Positions 41,301-62,195 of a stretch of DNA of 64,000 nucleotides are shown here, in pieces. Source of the DNA: Chinchilla lanigera (Eukaryota; Chordata; Mammalia; Rodentia; Chinchillidae); contig NW_004955475.1 of the NCBI RefSeq assembly GCF_000276665.1, forward strand, positions 5,152,794 to 5,216,793. The letters run 5' to 3'. Both the position numbers and the translations under genes were made by a program. The first letter of the stretch is position 1, and each line of letters opens with the position of its first letter. Under the pieces are notes generated by a model, which was not told where the DNA came from, made no database searches, and was given only the letters and a program-made list of their open reading frames with translations.

Positions 41301-41306
41301 GAAAAT
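41301..41306. repeat. Target-site duplication, left copy
   Basis: gaaaat directly abuts the 3' LTR and matches the copy at 48269-48274. Six bases is the betaretrovirus/IAP integration length. Confidence 0.8.
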
Positions 41307-41631
41307 AGTAGGGAACTTCATTGGTCTCTCGTCATACCCCAGAGAGAAACGGCGGTGGGTATGCGAAAAATAAAGACAAGCGACAAGGACTGCTTCAGGT
41401 GGAGTTACCTCTTACCTGATGGGAAGAGGACTGACTGCAACAGTAGGGGTGTTTATTTATACTCTTGCAAAGTTAGTATCAGGAGAGGTAACGTTGCCTA
41501 GCAACTAAGGACTGTAATTGTCCAGGCAGGATGTTTTTTCCAATACTGAGGTAGCGTGACTGCTTGAGGCACTCTGGCTCGGTCCTGCCCTCACACATAT
41601 GACCAATATCCAGCTCTAGCGTCTCCCAACA
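41307..41631 (-). repeat. 3' LTR of the provirus
   Basis: On the minus strand it begins TGTTGGGAGACGC and ends TTCCCTACT (probably an altered CA end). AATAAA lies at 41452-41457. It aligns with 47950-48268 over its whole length. Confidence 0.9.
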
Positions 41632-41647
41632 TATCTCCCTTTACTGT
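41632..41647 (-). promoter_or_regulatory. Polypurine tract
   Basis: The minus strand reads AAAGGGAGATA immediately before the TG of the 3' LTR, the expected place for plus-strand priming. Confidence 0.7.
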
Positions 41648-43740
41648 TTAGTTGCAGAAGTGATGGGTGTTCAGTTGAAACTGGAAAAGCTGTGCTTGAA
41701 GAATATAGTCCAAAGTCCGTAACAGTGGTCAGTTATCAGTCTAGCTGGCAGCTGGCAGAAGTTGTTGGTGACTTGAACCTTTTACAGCTAACCTATTACT
41801 ATTTCATTGCTTCTTACATCTGGTGGTTACACTTTTCTGCAGGATGTTTAAGACAAAGTTAAAGTGAGACCTGTGTAAATAAAAATTTAACCTTTTGCTA
41901 TCTATCAGGGTCAGTTAAGTCTCCTCAGGAATCATCTTGGAACCAAGTACAGCATCTCTAGATTTTCTGTCAGTGTCAGCCATCTGGATGAGTCACGGTC
42001 ATTGCTTGACCAAGGTGCTTTCTGTGAAAGCTTGAGAGATTTTTTCTCTCCTGGTGACTCTCCTTAGGTACACTGTACATCGTAGAATCACTTTCCTTTG
42101 TGGTCTCATAATCTCCTTGATCAGAAAATCAGGGACTCAACTGAGTGATAGGATGTCGCAGCAGAGGTCTCTTATGTCCTGAGTCCTTACTGACCTCGGA
42201 GGGCATAGCTAAAATATTGGCTGTCCTCTTAGCCCAATTTAACTCTAATTTTTGGTCTCCAAACCTCAGCTGTTCAACATCCAGCAGAGAAGATTAATGA
42301 CATAACATTATAACAGAGGCAGTATGCTTAATATTACTATTTGATCTGAACAGCAAACACCTTAGAACATAAAAATGGAACCATTATTTTTTAACAACCA
42401 TGGATATCCTAATATTTAAATCCTAATAGAATGTTAACAAACAATAGTTACATATTTTTAAACAGAAATTTAGAAATCAAAACCATACATAATATTGCTA
42501 CATGACCGTCATGATGACATTTTGTAACATACTTAAATTTTCATTTTGACGTAACATTACCTTTTTAACCAGTTATCTCTACCTAATGCATAGGAAGCTT
42601 TTATCTAATTTGTTGTCCTTTAATGGCATATACATCACAAGTTTTTGTTAAAGGCAGAGGTCTGTATCTGAAGGAAAGTCTTATCACAATTAATAATCTT
42701 TGTTTTACCTTTTGGAAGACCTGTACATGTAGAATCATGAATACACTTAATACACCATGAGATTAACACTAATAAATTATCATACACATGTGAAAACCTT
42801 TGTTAAATTTAGTTTTGTACCAAGAGCATCTTTTCTGAGAAAACCTTACTGTAATTTTTCCTGAAAAACTTTCTTTTGACCACATGACCCAATTATTGAG
42901 GTGACTTCCAAGAGACTATAGACATCACTGGGGCTCCTTATTAATGAATACAGGTTGGCCATTCCTCTGTTCACCAGTTGAAGTCCTACCTAATAATTTC
43001 TCCTCACCCTAAGGACTGTGGTTAAACTATCTTAATTTTGATATCATTTAAACCAGCTGGTAACTCAGGTGAAAGCATATTAAGTCTATAACCCAAATTG
43101 TATTATGAACAAATGGTAAAAGAAAAATTATTGAGCTCAAAATAAAGGGGAACAGCTGTTCACAGAATGACAAACACATAAACAAGTACACAGAACAAAC
43201 ACATTTACAAAATCAGAGTGCACTCAAATATATTTTTGGCCAAATTGAATTATAGTAACTGTACTACAATTTTAGAAATTTATAATTTAAATAGACTGGT
43301 CAGATTTTGTTGTCAATTAGTAAAGGTCTCTTATCAGAAAAACTGGGATAAAATACAATCCTTAATCTATAGTGAATATATATATATTCTTTGTATTTTA
43401 TTGTGTCTTAAGAATACTGGTAATTTTCAGCTTAATTATGTCTATATACTCTATCATTTATTTAAATCTTTAATTCCCATTTTGATTACTATTTCCTGGG
43501 CCTTCTGTGTCAATTTCTTTGGTTGGCCCCAGGTCAGGTTTAGCGTCACCTTGTCTATCAGGTATAGAGCGGTCTCTGAGGCATTAGTATCACAGAACTG
43601 TACATTAGCTCCCCTAAAGGTGGAACGAACTTCTTCTCTAGATCTAAGTTCGTGGTACAGCCAGACAGCATGCTTTAACAAAACACAGGCATATTCTGGA
43701 CACCAAGTTAGCTTTTTGTGTGTGTGTGCTTTACCCGATT

Positions 43741-43846
43741 TTTTTTGTTTGTTTGTTTTTTTGTTTTTCTCCGGTACCGGGAACTGAACTCACAACGTTG
43801 CACTTGCCAGGCAGGCGCTTTGCTGCTGAGCTAAATCCCCAGCCCC
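43741..43846 (-). repeat. ID SINE inside the provirus, with target duplication
   Basis: tccggtaccgggaactgaac through gagctaaatccccagcccc. tgctttacccgatt flanks at 43727-43740 and 43847-43860. It is younger than the provirus. Confidence 0.93.
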
Positions 43847-44070
43847 TGCTTTACCCGATTGAATTGTCTTTTGTTGTACTTCCATCTTTTGTAAAATTTT
43901 AAAAATTCTAATAGATTTTTATTTTCTGTATATTTTCAAAGAAATTAATTATTAGGACATTTTTAGGCTCCCTCTTAAAAGGATCAGTGTAATGTCTAGG
44001 AGTAGGCACACAAAGACTGTTGGGATGTACTTGAAAAAGGTCATTTATCTTAGTTTGGCTAGCTAAATTA

Positions 44071-44174
44071 TTTTTCTGTTTTTGTTTTTGTTTTTTTTCT
44101 GGTCTCAGGAATCGAACTCAGGACCTTGCTCTTGCCAGGCAGGCGCTTGTGCCACTGAGCTATATCCCTGGCGA
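44071..44174 (-). repeat. ID SINE inside the provirus, with target duplication
   Basis: gaatcgaactcaggaccttg through gagctatatccctgg. gctagctaaatta flanks at 44058-44070 and 44175-44187. Confidence 0.92.
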
Positions 44175-44376
44175 GCTAGCTAAATTAATTACCTCTAAAA
44201 ATTTCAAAACATAAAACATGTATGTATCCATAAGATGGACTCAAATTGCAGGGTCTGGCTGATGCAAGAGGGAATTTTCTCCCACTTAGCTGCTCGCTAG
44301 AGCCATTATGTTAGAATAAACCACTTATACCTGGACACATGTTAGCAGGTGTCAATACTAAGCAGCAGCTTATTGC

Positions 44377-45330
44377 TTTATTGTCTGGCGCAGCACCTGG
44401 GGCACGAAGTCCTGCAGGAAGCCACAGAGCTCAGGGAACAGCCCCTTTAAGTCCCCCAGAGGGGTGAGGGTGAGCGTCCCCTCTGCCTCGGAGCCACTAG
44501 CCACAAAGGTAATGAGGGGCTCAGCCTTTACTCCCTGCTCCCCACTGTCACTGCCAGGCCCAACCAGCTTGTAATCAGCCCCTCTATCACCCTCCTGGCC
44601 CTGCTGTCGCCCTTGCCACGTGTGGTGCAGCGCCAGCTAGCTCATCCCTGGCCTTCGTCTCTGAAGCCTGGGCATTGGCTAGCCACCACCGGCAGGTACC
44701 CTGGGTGTCTGAGGCTTCTCATGCCCCATTTCCACACCGGCTTGTTAGCCTCCACCGCTGTCTCCCCCTTTGCTGCTTGACCGAGGTTTCCTGCGTGTCT
44801 CCACAGCTCCTCATCCTCGTCCTTGTTGCCTTCCCCGTGCCCATCTAGCTTTAGTCTTTTGCCAGCTTCACCCTGGGTGGCCTCCTCCATCCTTGCCTCA
44901 GGCCTTAGCCTCTCTGTGCCGCGTTCTGTCTGGCACCCCAGTGCATCCTGTAGCACCCCGAGCAGAGCAGCAGTGAGCTGGGGGAAGGGCGCTGTGGGCA
45001 GGGAACGGGAGCAGCTGTGAGCAGGGAGGCGGGAGGGCATGGCTGCCTATGGGGCAGCAGCCCCCAGTCACAGCCTTGGGCAGGGGAGCCCTGACACTTC
45101 AGGCTCTGGCAGAAACTGGCTGTAGCTTCCACTTTATTGCCTTGGGGTCCAGCAAGTTGCTGGCAGGGCCCCAGCAGTCCTGCTTTATTTTCAGGAATGG
45201 GCTCCACTGCCTGCACACCCCCAAGTGTCTCTGTGGTCACTGCCTCTGTAGCCGCAGGGGATGTGCCCAGCCTCTGTGCATGCTGGCCATCGCTTTTGCT
45301 CTGGCCGCCGGATACTCTATTTTTGCCCAG
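44377..45330 (-). pseudogene. Unidentified GC-rich block downstream of ZAR1 (possible second captured gene or 3' UTR)
   Basis: Strong GC contrast with the AT-rich viral sequence that follows. An open frame at 44642-45040 (132 codons) keeps the same frame as its counterpart in the second copy (61719-62192). Shared peptides include FPQLTAALL-VLQD-LGCQ, the acidic stretch KDEDEELW-HAGNL, and LPVVASQCPG. It is Glu/Asp-rich in the middle. I do not recognise the protein. The block ends near a minus-strand AATAAA at 44377-44382, which would suit capture of a polyadenylated mRNA. Confidence 0.6.
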
Positions 45331-45339
45331 ATTCCAAGC

Positions 45340-46266
45340 ACTGGTGCCATCACAGGACAGGCGCCTGCTCCTGCACCTCTCACACAGGTCTTGACGATGG
45401 GAGTGTTTGGGGTCCACGTGGCAAAGTCTTACTGGGCATGAACATTTAGTTCTTTTACAACTTTGGCAGGTGATATCCTTCACTCAGTAAGGGTTGTAAG
45501 ATTTTTGACACGTTCTGCAAAACTGTTTAAAATAAACCTTATTTGTACCCTGGATGCACCAAACGAATGCACTCTCCCAGCGGATGTTGCAGTCCTTACA
45601 GTGATGATGCCATATTTCTGCTAAAAGCGCAAGTGCTTCTTGCTTGGCTGGGTATGCGGCAGTGATCTTTTCTGCACAGTGGTGGTTGTGTCTCTGCGGT
45701 CTCCAGCCCTCCCCACCACCAGGGGCCGCCCCAGCTTCTGCATCGCGGGCTGTGGACCTGGCTTGCCAGTTTGAGCCTCTTGTTGCTCCTGCCCGGCCCT
45801 CGGCGGTGGGGATGCGTTCCTTGTTGCCCCCTCATTCTCCTCTGGTGCCACAGAGCCCTGCGTGCTCGCTGGGGCCTTCTCCAGGCAGCCAGTGAGGTAG
45901 TGGGAACGCATAGGCGAGCACGCAGCGACGGAGCACGGGAAGCACCGCGGGGTGGCTGGGACTCCTGGGTCCCCGACCCAGCACGGCGGCATATGCCGTC
46001 CCAGCATGCACGGTACCGATGAGTGGCATCACTGGTTCACTTGCACCCCCCACATCACGGCAGCTGGGCCTGCAGGGGCCAGGCCCGAAGCCGGAGCTCA
46101 TGTGCGACAGGAGTCTGGTGGAGGAGGAGGAAGCAAGAGGGTGTTCCCCACCGCAGAGCTGCCAATCATTGGTGTCCTTGGAGTCCGGCACAGAGGGGAA
46201 GAGAGAGGAGGGAGCGCATGCCGGGTACCTGAATGTGCCTAGCACCTTGTCCCCCATTGCAGCCAT
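45340..46266 (-). pseudogene. ZAR1: ZAR1-like intronless copy inside the provirus
   Basis: On the minus strand an ATG at 46266 opens MAAMGDKVLGTFRYPACAP, matching the N-terminus of ZAR1 (zygote arrest 1). The C-terminal Cys-rich RNA-binding domain follows at 45345-45625, with HCKDCNIRWESAFVWC, FCRTCQKSYNPY and ITCQSCKRTKCSCPVRL. ZAR1 binds maternal mRNA in oocytes, and its Cys domain is split over several exons in the cellular gene; here it is continuous, so it came from spliced RNA. Closer to ZAR1 than ZAR1L by the RTCQKSYNPY and DITCQSC stretches. Breaks: a frame change in the middle region, TAG at 45621-45623, a 1-nt loss near 45608 and TGA at 45484-45486. The extreme C-terminus diverges after LSCDG. 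Confidence 0.88.
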
Positions 46267-46280
46267 CTGGGCGGCCCCCA

Positions 46281-47641
46281 TTATTTCATGTGGCTGAGGC
46301 AATCTGTGATGGGGGTTTCCCAGAAAGAGCTGACTTTTCCCAGCAGTTCTAGATCGACCCTGGTTATTCCAGTGATACACTTAGTATAGGGACTGCAAGG
46401 TTTAGCTACAGATAATGACTGTGCTGCCCTTATAGGTGTAGCAGAGCAATTCCGGACAAGGTGCCCCTTATTTCCACAATGAAAATAAATGGCCTTGTTT
46501 TTACCCTTTCCTCCAGGCTGTGGATGAATAACCTGAGTAATAGCTGCTGCCAAAGTACACCCTGTACATATGAGGGTCCAATATCTACACAGATCCGAAT
46601 CATATCCAGCAATGTGGCTCGCCTTTTACGGGCTCTTAAAGCCTCTTTACACCATTTATTTGCATTTTCAAAGGCTAGCTGCTGAACTATTAGTTTGCTG
46701 GCTTTTGTGTTATTTATAATCTTCTCGCTAGCCTGCAATAACCTTGAGAGGAAATTTTGCAAAGGTTCCTCAGGACCCTGATGTATAGAAGCCAAACTGA
46801 GGGCTGCCTCTCCCTTAGAAGGAAGTTCCCTCCAAGCCCTCCTGGCAGCCATCTTGGTTTGTTCATATGCTGGCAGTTCAAAGGTCAGTTGACTGCGGTA
46901 GCAAAGGCACCTTCCCCAATTAGCATATCTTTTGTAATGGCTATGTTGTGAATAGCATTCCCAGCGGCCTGGTCAGTGCAACGCTCAAGGAAGTTTCCTT
47001 TCCACATTAGTCTCCTGGATTTAATCATGCTTTAGCTATTCCTTTCCAATCATTTGGGGCCATAATCTGTTGTCCTAGAATTTCCATTAAACTCAAGGTA
47101 AAGGGAGCAGCAGGACCACAAGTAGCAACTGCTTGTTTTAATTCTTTTTAAGGTTTTAAAAGGTATAGCTTCATAACAACGTATAACTTGTCCTGGATCT
47201 CCAGAGACTTGACCTTCAGTAACAGGGTAGATATGTTGAAAACCCTCCATGGGCTCCCCTACCCATCTGGCTTCTTTTAATGCTAATCGCAAGGGAGACA
47301 GAGAAAATGGCTCTACTCTCCTGAGAGGCGGAAGTTCCAATCTGTGATGCAGTAAAATTTCTCTGAGCTGAAAAGGCTGGAATAGCCACCCGTGGTTCAG
47401 TCAATTCCACGGAATGTTGTGAGACAGAGTTCACAGGGAAACACCTCTCTGGTGGGGAAAAGTGCCTTTTGTCCCCCACCACTCCTTCCTTCTTAAATTG
47501 GACCAGGCTAGAGGGCTCAGGCTCTATCAGCAGAGCTGTTTCTCCGCCCTCCATGTCCCGCTTAGGCTCCAGACTTGATTTTAACATAACGTTCTGAGCC
47601 AAATCCCTTATGGTTACAAAACCCCTCCAAACCAACATCAA
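46281..47641 (-). pseudogene. Broken retroviral gag (capsid and nucleocapsid remnants)
   Basis: Fragments in several frames on the minus strand. A capsid N-terminal part lies near 47050-47340. A major-homology-region-like motif (QGPEEPLQNFLSRL) falls within 46430-46852. A nucleocapsid zinc knuckle (HCGNKGHLVRNC) lies within 46281-46553. The first knuckle Cys appears replaced by Tyr, so even the best motif is degenerate. At least two frame changes separate the pieces. The gag style is betaretrovirus-like (class II). The last stop falls just before the ZAR1-like start. Confidence 0.8.
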
Positions 47642-47929
47642 GAAAATTAAATATAGGAGTCAACATGCAACAAATACTTCTACAAGCATATACCTCCAGG
47701 AGTCTTGAGCCTCTACTTACACTTTACTATCCCTTTCTCTTTTGGCTTCTTTGAAGCCTGTAGATCTTTTAGCCCTAGAAAGCACATATCCCCACGCTTT
47801 ACACCTGATGGGCCAGTACCATGCACTCCAGTGCTAAATACTAGCTTTCACAAATGCGCCCCCACCCCCACCCCGACTGTTACGCACTCTTAGGAAGCGT
47901 ACCCAGTGCCCACTTATTTTCTCTCACTG

Positions 47930-47947
47930 GGTGTCCAGTGGGTGCCA
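47930..47947 (-). promoter_or_regulatory. Probable degenerate primer-binding site
   Basis: Two bases after the 5' LTR, the minus strand reads TGGCACCCACTGG. The TGGC-CCC core resembles tRNA-Lys type sites of class II elements, but the rest does not match well. Confidence 0.45.
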
Positions 47948-47949
47948 AA

Positions 47950-48268
47950 TATAGGGAACCTCACTGGTCTCTTGTTGTACTCCAGAGATAAACAGCTGTG
48001 GGTATGAGAAAAATAAAGACAAGAGACAAGGACTGCTTCAGGTGGAGTTACCTCTTACCTGATGAGAAAAGGACTGACTTCAGTAGGGGCATTTATTTAC
48101 ACTCTTGCAAAGTTAGTATCAGGAGAGGTAATGTTGCCTAGCGATTAAGGACTGTAATTGTCCAGGCAGGTTGTTTTATCAATACTGAGGCAGCTTGACT
48201 GCTTGAGGCACTCTGGCTGTCCTGCCCTCACACATATGACCACTATCCAGCTCCAGCGTGTCCCAACA
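47950..48268 (-). repeat. 5' LTR of the provirus
   Basis: On the minus strand it begins TGTTGGGACACGC and ends TTCCCTATA. An AATAAA lies at 48092-48097. It is a direct repeat of 41307-41631. Confidence 0.9.
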
Positions 48269-48274
48269 GAAAAT
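48269..48274. repeat. Target-site duplication, right copy
   Basis: gaaaat abuts the TG start of the 5' LTR and pairs with 41301-41306. Confidence 0.8.
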
Positions 48275-60180: not shown

Positions 60181-60594
60181 TCTGTGTCTCCCTTGCAATT
60201 GGCATTAAAAGAAGCTAGAAGGACAAGGGAGACCATGGAGGGTTTTCAGCATATCTACCCTGTAACTAAAGTTTAAGTCCCTGAAAATTCAGGACAAGTT
60301 ATATGTCCTTACGAAGCCGTACCTTTTAAAACCCTGAAAGGGTTAAAACAAGCTGTTGCTACTTATGGCACTTCTGCTCCCTTTACTTTGAGATTAGTAG
60401 AAATTCTAGGACAGCAGATTATGTCCCCAAATGATTGTCTCTTCAATTAAACCTGGCAGTCCTTGTACTAAGTGTCAGTGAGGGTATCACTGGAATAATC
60501 AGTGTAGATATAGAACTGTTGGAAAAGGTCGGCCCTTCCCGAGAAACACCCAATGGAACTTGCTTCAGCCCCATCAAATAATGGGGGCCACCCA

Positions 60595-61480
60595 GTGGCT
60601 GCAGTGAGGGACGAAGTGCTGGGCACATTCAGGTACCAGGCATGTGCCCCCTACTCCTGTCCCTTTCTGTACCCACTGGACACCGGGGCAGGCGGCTCTG
60701 TCATGGGGGGACACCCTCCTGCCTTGTTCTCCTCTGCCGCACTCCTGTCGCACTTGAGCCCGGGCTTTGATCCATGCCCCAGAAGTCCCAGCTGATGCGG
60801 TGTGGGGGTACAGGTGAAACAGCAGTGTGATGCTTCAGTTTAGTGCGCACTCGGGTGGCAGATACCGCTGTGCAGGGCCTGGGACTCCAGAACCCCAGCC
60901 GGCCCCCGCACACTTCCCACACTCCCCTGCCTCACCGGCTGCCTGGAAGAGGCCCCAGCGAGCACGCAGGGCCCTGTGGCACCGGAGGAGTACAAGGGGG
61001 CAGCAAGGAAGGCATCCCCACTGCCAAGAGCCAAGCAGGAGCAACAGGAGGCTCAAACTAGTGAGGCGGCCCCACAGCCCGTGCTGCAGAAGCTGGGGCG
61101 GCCCCTGGCAGCAGGGAGGGCTGGGAACACTGGGGGTGCGGCCACCACTGCGCAGAAGAGGTTGCTGCCAGATGCAGAGCCAGGCAAGGAGCGCCTGCGC
61201 TTATGGCAAAAATATGGTTATTATCACTGCAAAGACTGCAGCATTCACTGGGAGAGTGCCTGTATGTGGTTCAGGGCACGAACAAGGCTTACTTCAGACA
61301 GTCTTCTAGAATGTGCCAGAAGTCTCACAAGCCTTACCGAGTGGAGGATATCACCTGTCGAAGTTGTAAAAGAACTAGATGTTCCTACTCAGTAAGACAT
61401 CGCCACGTGGACACCAAAGACTCCCATGGTCAAGACCTGTGTGAGAGCTGCAGGGGCAGGCGCCTGTCCTGTGCCGGCGC
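60595..61480 (+). pseudogene. ZAR1: ZAR1-like intronless copy, second locus
   Basis: The N-terminal part reads AVRDEVLGTFRYQACAPYSC and the Cys domain (61208-61480) has QKYGYYHCKDCSIHWES, then, in another frame, KPYRVEDITCRSCKRTRC and DLCESCRGRRLSC. The start ATG is lost (an A is missing at about 60595) and a 4-nt deletion near 61262-61272 shifts frame inside the Cys domain. The Arg codon (61338-61340) that is a stop in the first copy is intact here. Both copies are therefore dead, but through different mutations. Confidence 0.85.
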
Positions 61481-61559
61481 AGTACACAAAATCCAGACAG
61501 AAACAAAATATTCAGCGTCCAGAGCAAAAGTGGCAGCCAACATTCACAGTGGCTGGGCA

Positions 61560-62195
61560 CCACCACTGAGCCACTTGTGGGGGTGGTGCAGGCAGTGGAG
61601 CCCATTCTCGAGAATAAAGCGGGACTGTTGAGGCTCTGCCGCCAACCTGCCCAGCCCCAAGGTGATAAAATAAAATCTGCAGCTAGTTACTGCCAGAGCC
61701 TAAAGTATCAGCTCAGCTGTGCCCAAGGCCGTGACTGGGGGCTGCTGCCTCCCCGCAGGCACACCCTCCAGCCTCGCTGCTCCTATTCTCTTGTCCACAG
61801 CGCCCTTCCCCCAGCTCACTGCTGCTCTGGTCCAGGTGCTGCAGGACACACTGGGGTGCCAGATAGTACGGGAGACAAAGAGACCAAGGCCTGGAGCAGG
61901 GATGGAGGAGGCCGCCCAGGGAGTAGCTGGCGAAAGACTAAAGGTAGATGGGCCTGGAGAGGGTGGCAAGGACGGGGATGAGGAGCTGTGGGGACATGCA
62001 GGGAACCTCGATCAAAAAGCAAAGGAGGAGATGGTTATGGAGGTTGGCAAGGTGGCACAGGACTGGGGCATGGACAGCTCCACACAGCCAGGGGACCTGC
62101 CGGTGGTGGCTAGCCAGTGCCCAGGCCCTAGCGAGGAAGGACAGGGTCACCCAACACCTGCCCATGTTAGTTGTTCCAATTACCAGATATAAGCA
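61560..62195 (+). pseudogene. Second copy of the unidentified GC-rich block
   Basis: An open frame at 61719-62192 (157 codons) aligns without frame change to 44642-45040 (minus) over about 110 codons, including GMEEA, KDGDEELWGHAGNL and LPVVASQCPG. Homology with the first copy stops near 62150. Confidence 0.55.

Follow-up and report, generated by a model that had tools for sequence, protein, structure and literature searches.

The window analysed here, a stretch of 64,000 nucleotides from Chinchilla lanigera (GCF_000276665.1, contig NW_004955475.1, positions 5,152,794 to 5,216,793), carries on its minus strand a provirus (41307-48268) that contains gag together with parts of two host genes, ZAR1 and TUT1, as delimited by a pair of long terminal repeats (LTRs), a target-site duplication, and profile and sequence matches. 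Comparison of the LTRs places the 5' LTR at 47950-48268 and the 3' LTR at 41307-41631, and ATTTTC is read on both outer flanks (48269-48274 and 41301-41306). Downstream of the 5' LTR lies a presumptive primer-binding site (47930-47947), a degraded stretch starting with TGG that was read for a lysine-tRNA match and assigned to no tRNA; a polypurine tract (41632-41642) adjoins the 3' LTR. The leader and 5' part of gag (46973-47937) are broken and conserved among copies, as seen when the window segments were mapped onto them. The capsid region (46430-46972) matches Pfam Gag_p24_C with an E-value of 1.6e-22, while Gag_p24 and the zinc knuckle remain under the curated cut-offs. The nucleocapsid region (46281-46625) has a weak zinc knuckle, and its terminal TAA overlaps with an ATG belonging to the ZAR1 frame. 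This region is followed by a frameshifted ZAR1-derived segment (45345-46281) comprising the start, middle and zinc domain of the gene, with a stop at 45486-45484, by a linker of 218 nucleotides (45127-45344), and by a C-terminal segment of TUT1 (44363-45126). A preliminary description of this locus had reported the two LTRs with their 6-bp duplication and the gag gene between them, and both are borne out. It was right to call the element a provirus. It did not mention the minus-strand orientation, and it missed TUT1 as well as the membership of the element in a family with about 106 loci and the existence of a second viral background, both described below.

A Gag p24 of the Gag_p24/Gag_p24_C type and a 6-bp target-site duplication are traits of class II endogenous retroviruses (ERVs), and on these sequence traits the family is likely of endogenous betaretrovirus type. 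The window LTRs differ by a Kimura two-parameter (K2P) distance of 0.092 over 313 sites. With rates of 2.2-4.5e-9 per site and year, the age of this copy is estimated at about 10-21 million years. An Rfam scan of the window gave no match.

The ZAR1 part matches zygote arrest protein 1 in PDB over the zinc domain with an E-value of 6.9e-17, and the sequence directly after gag matches the start of ZAR1 (12 of 18 residues identical to a beaver protein). The homology proposed earlier thus held in a database search. The cellular gene could be told apart from the proviral copies: introns follow both NKV and ITCQ at the host ZAR1 locus (L030), whereas the provirus aligns to host exons 2, 3 and 4 in direct succession. 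This comparison covers exons 2-4, the stretch with host exon 1 (L039) being N at 1486 of 2601 bases. Because both host introns are absent from the provirus, the alignment shows the ZAR1 part to be spliced host sequence, in accordance with its description as intronless. The match stops at LSCD, nine residues short of the C-terminus, the end STFSFKYII not being present; ZAR1 therefore reads on into the linker and TUT1. The profile of the ZAR1 zinc domain, PF13695, scores above its cut-off in one other copy only (L020) and below it in the window. This domain is described as binding maternal mRNAs in oocytes (PMC6868374). A second chinchilla locus (L029, G000:C53:15879700-15881700) carries ZAR1 exon 4 with intron-like flanks, and no match to exon 2 or 3 was found within 2 kb of it.

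Downstream of ZAR1 and in the same frame lies C-terminal sequence of TUT1 (Speckle targeted PIP5K1A-regulated poly(A) polymerase), and the open frame with the end of the ZAR1 zinc domain continues into it. Three consecutive pieces match residues 556-617, 609-729 and 816-872 of PDB chain 9j8p_A, with E-values of 4e-10, 5e-16 and 1.5e-11. The last exon of host TUT1 (L035) has an open frame of 378 amino acids, and the proviral segment aligns to it from inside the exon to about seven bases beyond the stop codon. The captured segment, being a single exon, is uninformative on splicing. It comprises the C-terminal part of the protein, without the nucleotidyltransferase catalytic domain, and its tail forms what we take to be the RNA-binding KA-1 domain.

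The linker is present at least in part in 21 of the 22 mapped copies and may be a third captured host sequence. Two candidate sources were set aside: the exon with the proline-rich region of TUT1 was located in the host and gave no convincing DNA match to the linker, and neither did the upstream part of the last exon. Against 1540 bases of upstream sequence, the linker scored z values of 3.1 in L014, 2.0 in L015 and 0.1 to 1.7 in four other copies.

The same block of ZAR1, linker and TUT1, hereafter the cassette, recurs throughout the genome. A query of 192 amino acids spanning its three parts gave 155 matches (the best 150 of 264 candidates were scored in full), and the 150 listed merge into 98 loci, or 95 without three host loci. 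The TUT1-tail query, for which all 120 candidates were scored, gave 101 matches at 84 loci, 83 without the host gene; at 72 of these 83, a ZAR1-query match lies within 1.5 kb upstream on the same strand. Among the 11 without a listed upstream ZAR1 match, at least L031 (G000:C2:30710600-30713600), a rejected candidate for host TUT1, is a bare, decayed TUT1-tail fragment. The union of both queries amounts to about 106 loci among the matches listed, not all of them read individually, which rules out a single-locus oddity. With gag as query, 151 matches were obtained, and the 150 listed fall into 144 loci. At 65 of them the cassette follows downstream, in most cases about 1 kb away. The LTR query gave 1670 first-look candidates, the best 40 of which were scored.

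Twenty copies (L009-L028), picked from the top of the match list, were fetched. Segment mapping gave the order LTR, leader and gag, ZAR1, linker, TUT1, 3' region and LTR. Several are shortened: L018 extends from ZAR1 to the start of TUT1 only, L010 has lost most of gag, and some copies have no LTR match. An alignment across the joint between gag and ZAR1 was possible for 18 of the fetched copies and for the two in the window; of the resulting 20 rows, 16 have TAATG at this point. The roles of the two codons were read in the window copy only, where the TAA terminates gag and the ATG is in frame with ZAR1. In most copies examined, ZAR1, linker and TUT1 are thus arranged in one order and joined at the same points. 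Four copies were read at both ends, and each of them carries a 6-bp duplication, namely ATTTTC (window), TATACA (L023), CTTTTG (L021) and, with one mismatch, CCCAAG/CCCAAA (L026). It follows that whole elements moved, and complete elements inserted independently. In eight copies, the K2P distance between paired LTRs ranges from 0.056 (L019, 132 sites) to 0.185.

Eight pol pieces from relatives, searched against both window copies, gave no pol match, as had been stated for the provirus from its sequence. Cassette-free relatives do contain pol. Three gag loci without listed cassette matches were fetched (L032-L034): L032 has protease, reverse transcriptase, thumb and RNase H domains, and L033 has protease, RNase H and integrase domains (Pfam, some matches being under the curated cut-offs). 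In both, pol is followed by the same 3' region as in the window (41643-43674), which holds no recognised genes. The third, L034 (G000:C107:1892500-1896900), was discarded as a cassette-free relative, since it is a rearranged cassette copy with an inverted ZAR1 adjoining integrase. In the integrase and the region after it, L034 is 91% identical to L019, and it looks like a recombinant or a later rearrangement. Matches of 18 residues on the reverse strand in L012, L024, L027 and the window were due to the inverted ZAR1 inside the L034 query and were excluded from the counts.

In 10 of the 20 fetched cassette copies (L009, L011, L012, L017, L019, L020, L023, L024, L026 and L028), pro/pol remnants lie after TUT1 in their usual order, and the search with the relatives' pol pieces found none in the other 10. 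L019 retains reverse transcriptase, thumb, RNase H and both integrase pieces, and L020 the range from protease to integrase; several of the ten have short integrase ends only, the weakest being L023 (E-value 0.001). From the position of these remnants it follows that the cassette was inserted between gag and pro-pol and that pol eroded later. The earlier proposal that a host cDNA had replaced the replicase genes therefore has to be abandoned.

One of the fetched copies, L020, differs from the window element in gag (31% identity in the capsid) and in pol. A search with the L020 integrase, in which the best 150 of 1102 candidates were scored, found similar integrase sequences (66-85%) downstream of three more cassettes, located on C3, C198 and C158 (L060-L062). 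The cassette is thus present in a distant second gag-pol background, termed type B, at four loci among the matches listed, while most of the listed type-B integrase loci have no cassette, as judged by comparing the position lists by eye. In L060-L062, the type-B gag joins ZAR1 directly, just before the zinc domain, and the ZAR1 N-terminus is absent; L020 has an extra 1.8 kb in the region of this junction. The linker was found in three of the four type-B cassettes, L061 being largely N there.

A tree was built from 24 cassettes and the host sequence, leaving out L018 as too short. The four type-B cassettes group together (support 90/89) and, seen from the host, are nested inside a group of type-A copies, type A being the background of the window element (two forks with 99/96). 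Of the 22 inner branches, ten are weak, and L061 is partly N. This nesting fits one capture and a later transfer by recombination, and it suggests that the cassette passed into the second background in this way. L062 (G000:C158:1345700-1350500) has a type-A-like leader and LTR piece upstream of its type-B gag and cassette, a mixture that also suggests recombination between the two backgrounds.

Selection was examined on codons in the frame of the window copy. Variants found in two or more copies were set against permutations preserving base and CpG class. The amino-acid-changing fraction was 0.582 in the gag capsid against 0.699 by permutation (z -2.85, 0/500) and 0.617 in the ZAR1 zinc domain against 0.712 (z -2.69, 4/500). 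In-frame singletons showed no deficit in the capsid, the zinc domain or the TUT1 tail. For the zinc domain, the test was enlarged by 20 copies, to 41 besides the window copy, and gave 19/2000 for variants in at least two copies and 1/2000 for those in at least three. Shared variants of the larger set had positive z values in both wrong frames, and its in-frame singletons had z +1.67; the linker gave no significant result in this set. Pooled pairwise ratios of nonsynonymous to synonymous substitution (dN/dS), uncorrected for CpG and transition bias, were 0.41 in the zinc domain, 0.45 in the capsid and 0.50-0.85 elsewhere. The cysteines of the zinc domain are kept in 452 of 501 cells, compared with 2453 of 3002 for the other residues. 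Excluded from this count is one position with Arg in the host and with Cys in 15 of 42 copies; including it gives 467 of 543. The zinc domain thus appears to have been constrained while the lineage multiplied, which argues that it was likely translated and used by the virus.

We consider it probable, on this pattern of variants and on the shared architecture, that the ZAR1-TUT1 fusion between gag and pro-pol was made as a viral protein whose zinc domain would have bound RNA during replication in the germ line. Several observations weigh against this proposal. The copies are known here from genomic sequence alone, and the whole fused frame is open in none of the 20 fetched copies and two window copies, the longest partial frames reaching 467 amino acids. 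The ZAR1 start, the ZAR1 middle, the nucleocapsid, the linker and two TUT1 pieces show no significant deficit, and the result for the TUT1 tail is ambiguous, with 50/500 when shared variants and 9/500 when all differences are taken. Nor are the wrong frames all flat: their z values extend from -1.94 (in a TUT1 piece) up to +2.03, and in the larger set the singletons of one wrong frame reached -2.13. No source was found for the linker in the proline-rich exon of TUT1 or the upstream part of its last exon. Moreover, type-B copies do without the ZAR1 N-terminus, and in the tree the base composition of the host row is deviant.

Some of these points would be expected if the cassette had been a mere passenger, captured by accident and amplified without function along with a successful element: the lack of a whole open frame, the absence of significant constraint in most pieces and the loss of the N-terminus in type B all fit. 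A passenger, however, should not be short of shared amino-acid changes in its zinc domain while in-frame singletons are not, nor does its persistence in two viral backgrounds speak for it, and we regard this explanation as unlikely. The captured sequence could also have acted in cis as RNA, in packaging, stability or the control of translation in oocytes, with its coding content irrelevant. Cassette sequence is indeed kept even where the frames are broken, but the deficit goes with the ZAR1 frame and with neither of the other two, which makes a role of this kind quite improbable. Constraint imposed by the host, after adoption of one or more copies as a host gene, might be considered as well, since a predicted Chinchilla lanigera protein (LOC102023357, P0031) joins Gag p24, ZAR1, linker and TUT1. 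This protein is, however, an automatic model from one locus, whereas the signal stems from variants common to many copies. Moreover, two protein searches for the fusion, of limited sensitivity, retrieved the chinchilla model only and no relative among the proteins of other species. Host use thus seems very improbable. As for processed pseudogenes of ZAR1 and TUT1 inserted into the provirus after integration, a possibility raised in the preliminary description, the spliced state of ZAR1 is what they would give. They are already contradicted by the same order and joints at many independent loci (72 of the 83 TUT1-tail loci for ZAR1 and TUT1), and whole elements have target duplications of their own. 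TUT1 begins inside an exon, and a poly(A) was looked for at its end and not found. With these joints and no poly(A), such insertion is rejected and deserves practically no credence.

For the ZAR1-TUT1 fusion as a viral protein, a possible course of events can be outlined. Host mRNAs packaged into particles may have given rise to the capture, by copy-choice of reverse transcriptase. Translation could have started at the ATG overlapping the gag stop, by reinitiation at TAATG, or from a subgenomic RNA. The fusion protein would have bound viral or maternal RNA, as ZAR1 does, and the most economical idea is that it favoured storage, stability and protection, or packaging of the viral genome in oocytes. 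Forms without pol, the window copy among them, probably depended on pol-bearing relatives for movement in trans. The cassette would have entered the second background by recombination, there without the ZAR1 N-terminus. The RNA-binding part of ZAR1 likely worked as a protein of the virus, probably in the female germ line, where the preliminary description had supposed the virus to replicate. More tentatively, and with a good deal of doubt, an oocyte mRNA-storage factor might have been turned into a viral gene, the RNA-binding fusion serving to store viral RNA and to bring it through oocytes and early embryos, as a useful, exchangeable module across two retrovirus lineages and about a hundred loci.

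Host genes captured by retroviruses mostly act on cell growth. Oncogene-transducing retroviruses carry growth-control genes and are mostly recent exogenous viruses; here, in contrast, an oocyte maternal-effect gene resides in an old endogenous family. In the MusD/ETn elements of the mouse, deleted copies are thought to be moved in trans by full relatives, as proposed here, but ETn is without a captured host gene. Among the open-licence papers listed, judged by title or the beginning of the abstract, none dealt with ZAR1 or TUT1 in a retrovirus. The closest precedent is the capture of KIT-ligand by CrocERV29, for which purifying selection on the captured frame was reported (PMC4299795). Both are multi-copy ERV lineages that captured host mRNA and did not lose their replicase genes on insertion. 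CrocERV29, however, has one growth-factor gene between pol and env and nine open-frame copies, whereas in the chinchilla family two RNA-metabolism genes, fused to each other, stand between gag and pro-pol; this family has about 106 listed loci in two backgrounds, and no whole open frame among the fetched copies. CrocERV31, which captured nectin3, is likewise an ERV lineage with a host mRNA, presumed to have spread by retrotransposition, but the mRNA is that of a single cell-adhesion gene and stands in place of env (PMC4299795). Spliced host coding sequence within a provirus is also described in Rous sarcoma virus and a walleye virus (PMC4299795).

In a mammalian ERV family that carries two RNA-metabolism genes in fused form, one of them a maternal-effect gene, the success of the virus would be linked to egg biology. 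Its hundred or so loci and two backgrounds document how a host gene was captured, used and exchanged and how pol was lost afterwards. They also allow a test of whether the acquisition of germ-line RNA factors is a way in which ERVs adapt to the female germ line.

The window contains a second, truncated copy on the plus strand (about 60181-62146), with a piece of gag, ZAR1, linker and TUT1; no LTR match was found for it. It lies about 12 kb from the provirus, in the opposite orientation. Between TUT1 and the 3' region of the provirus, two tRNA-like short interspersed elements are inserted (43740-43845 and 44068-44178), which resemble the ID elements of rodents; other copies keep integrase remnants at this site.

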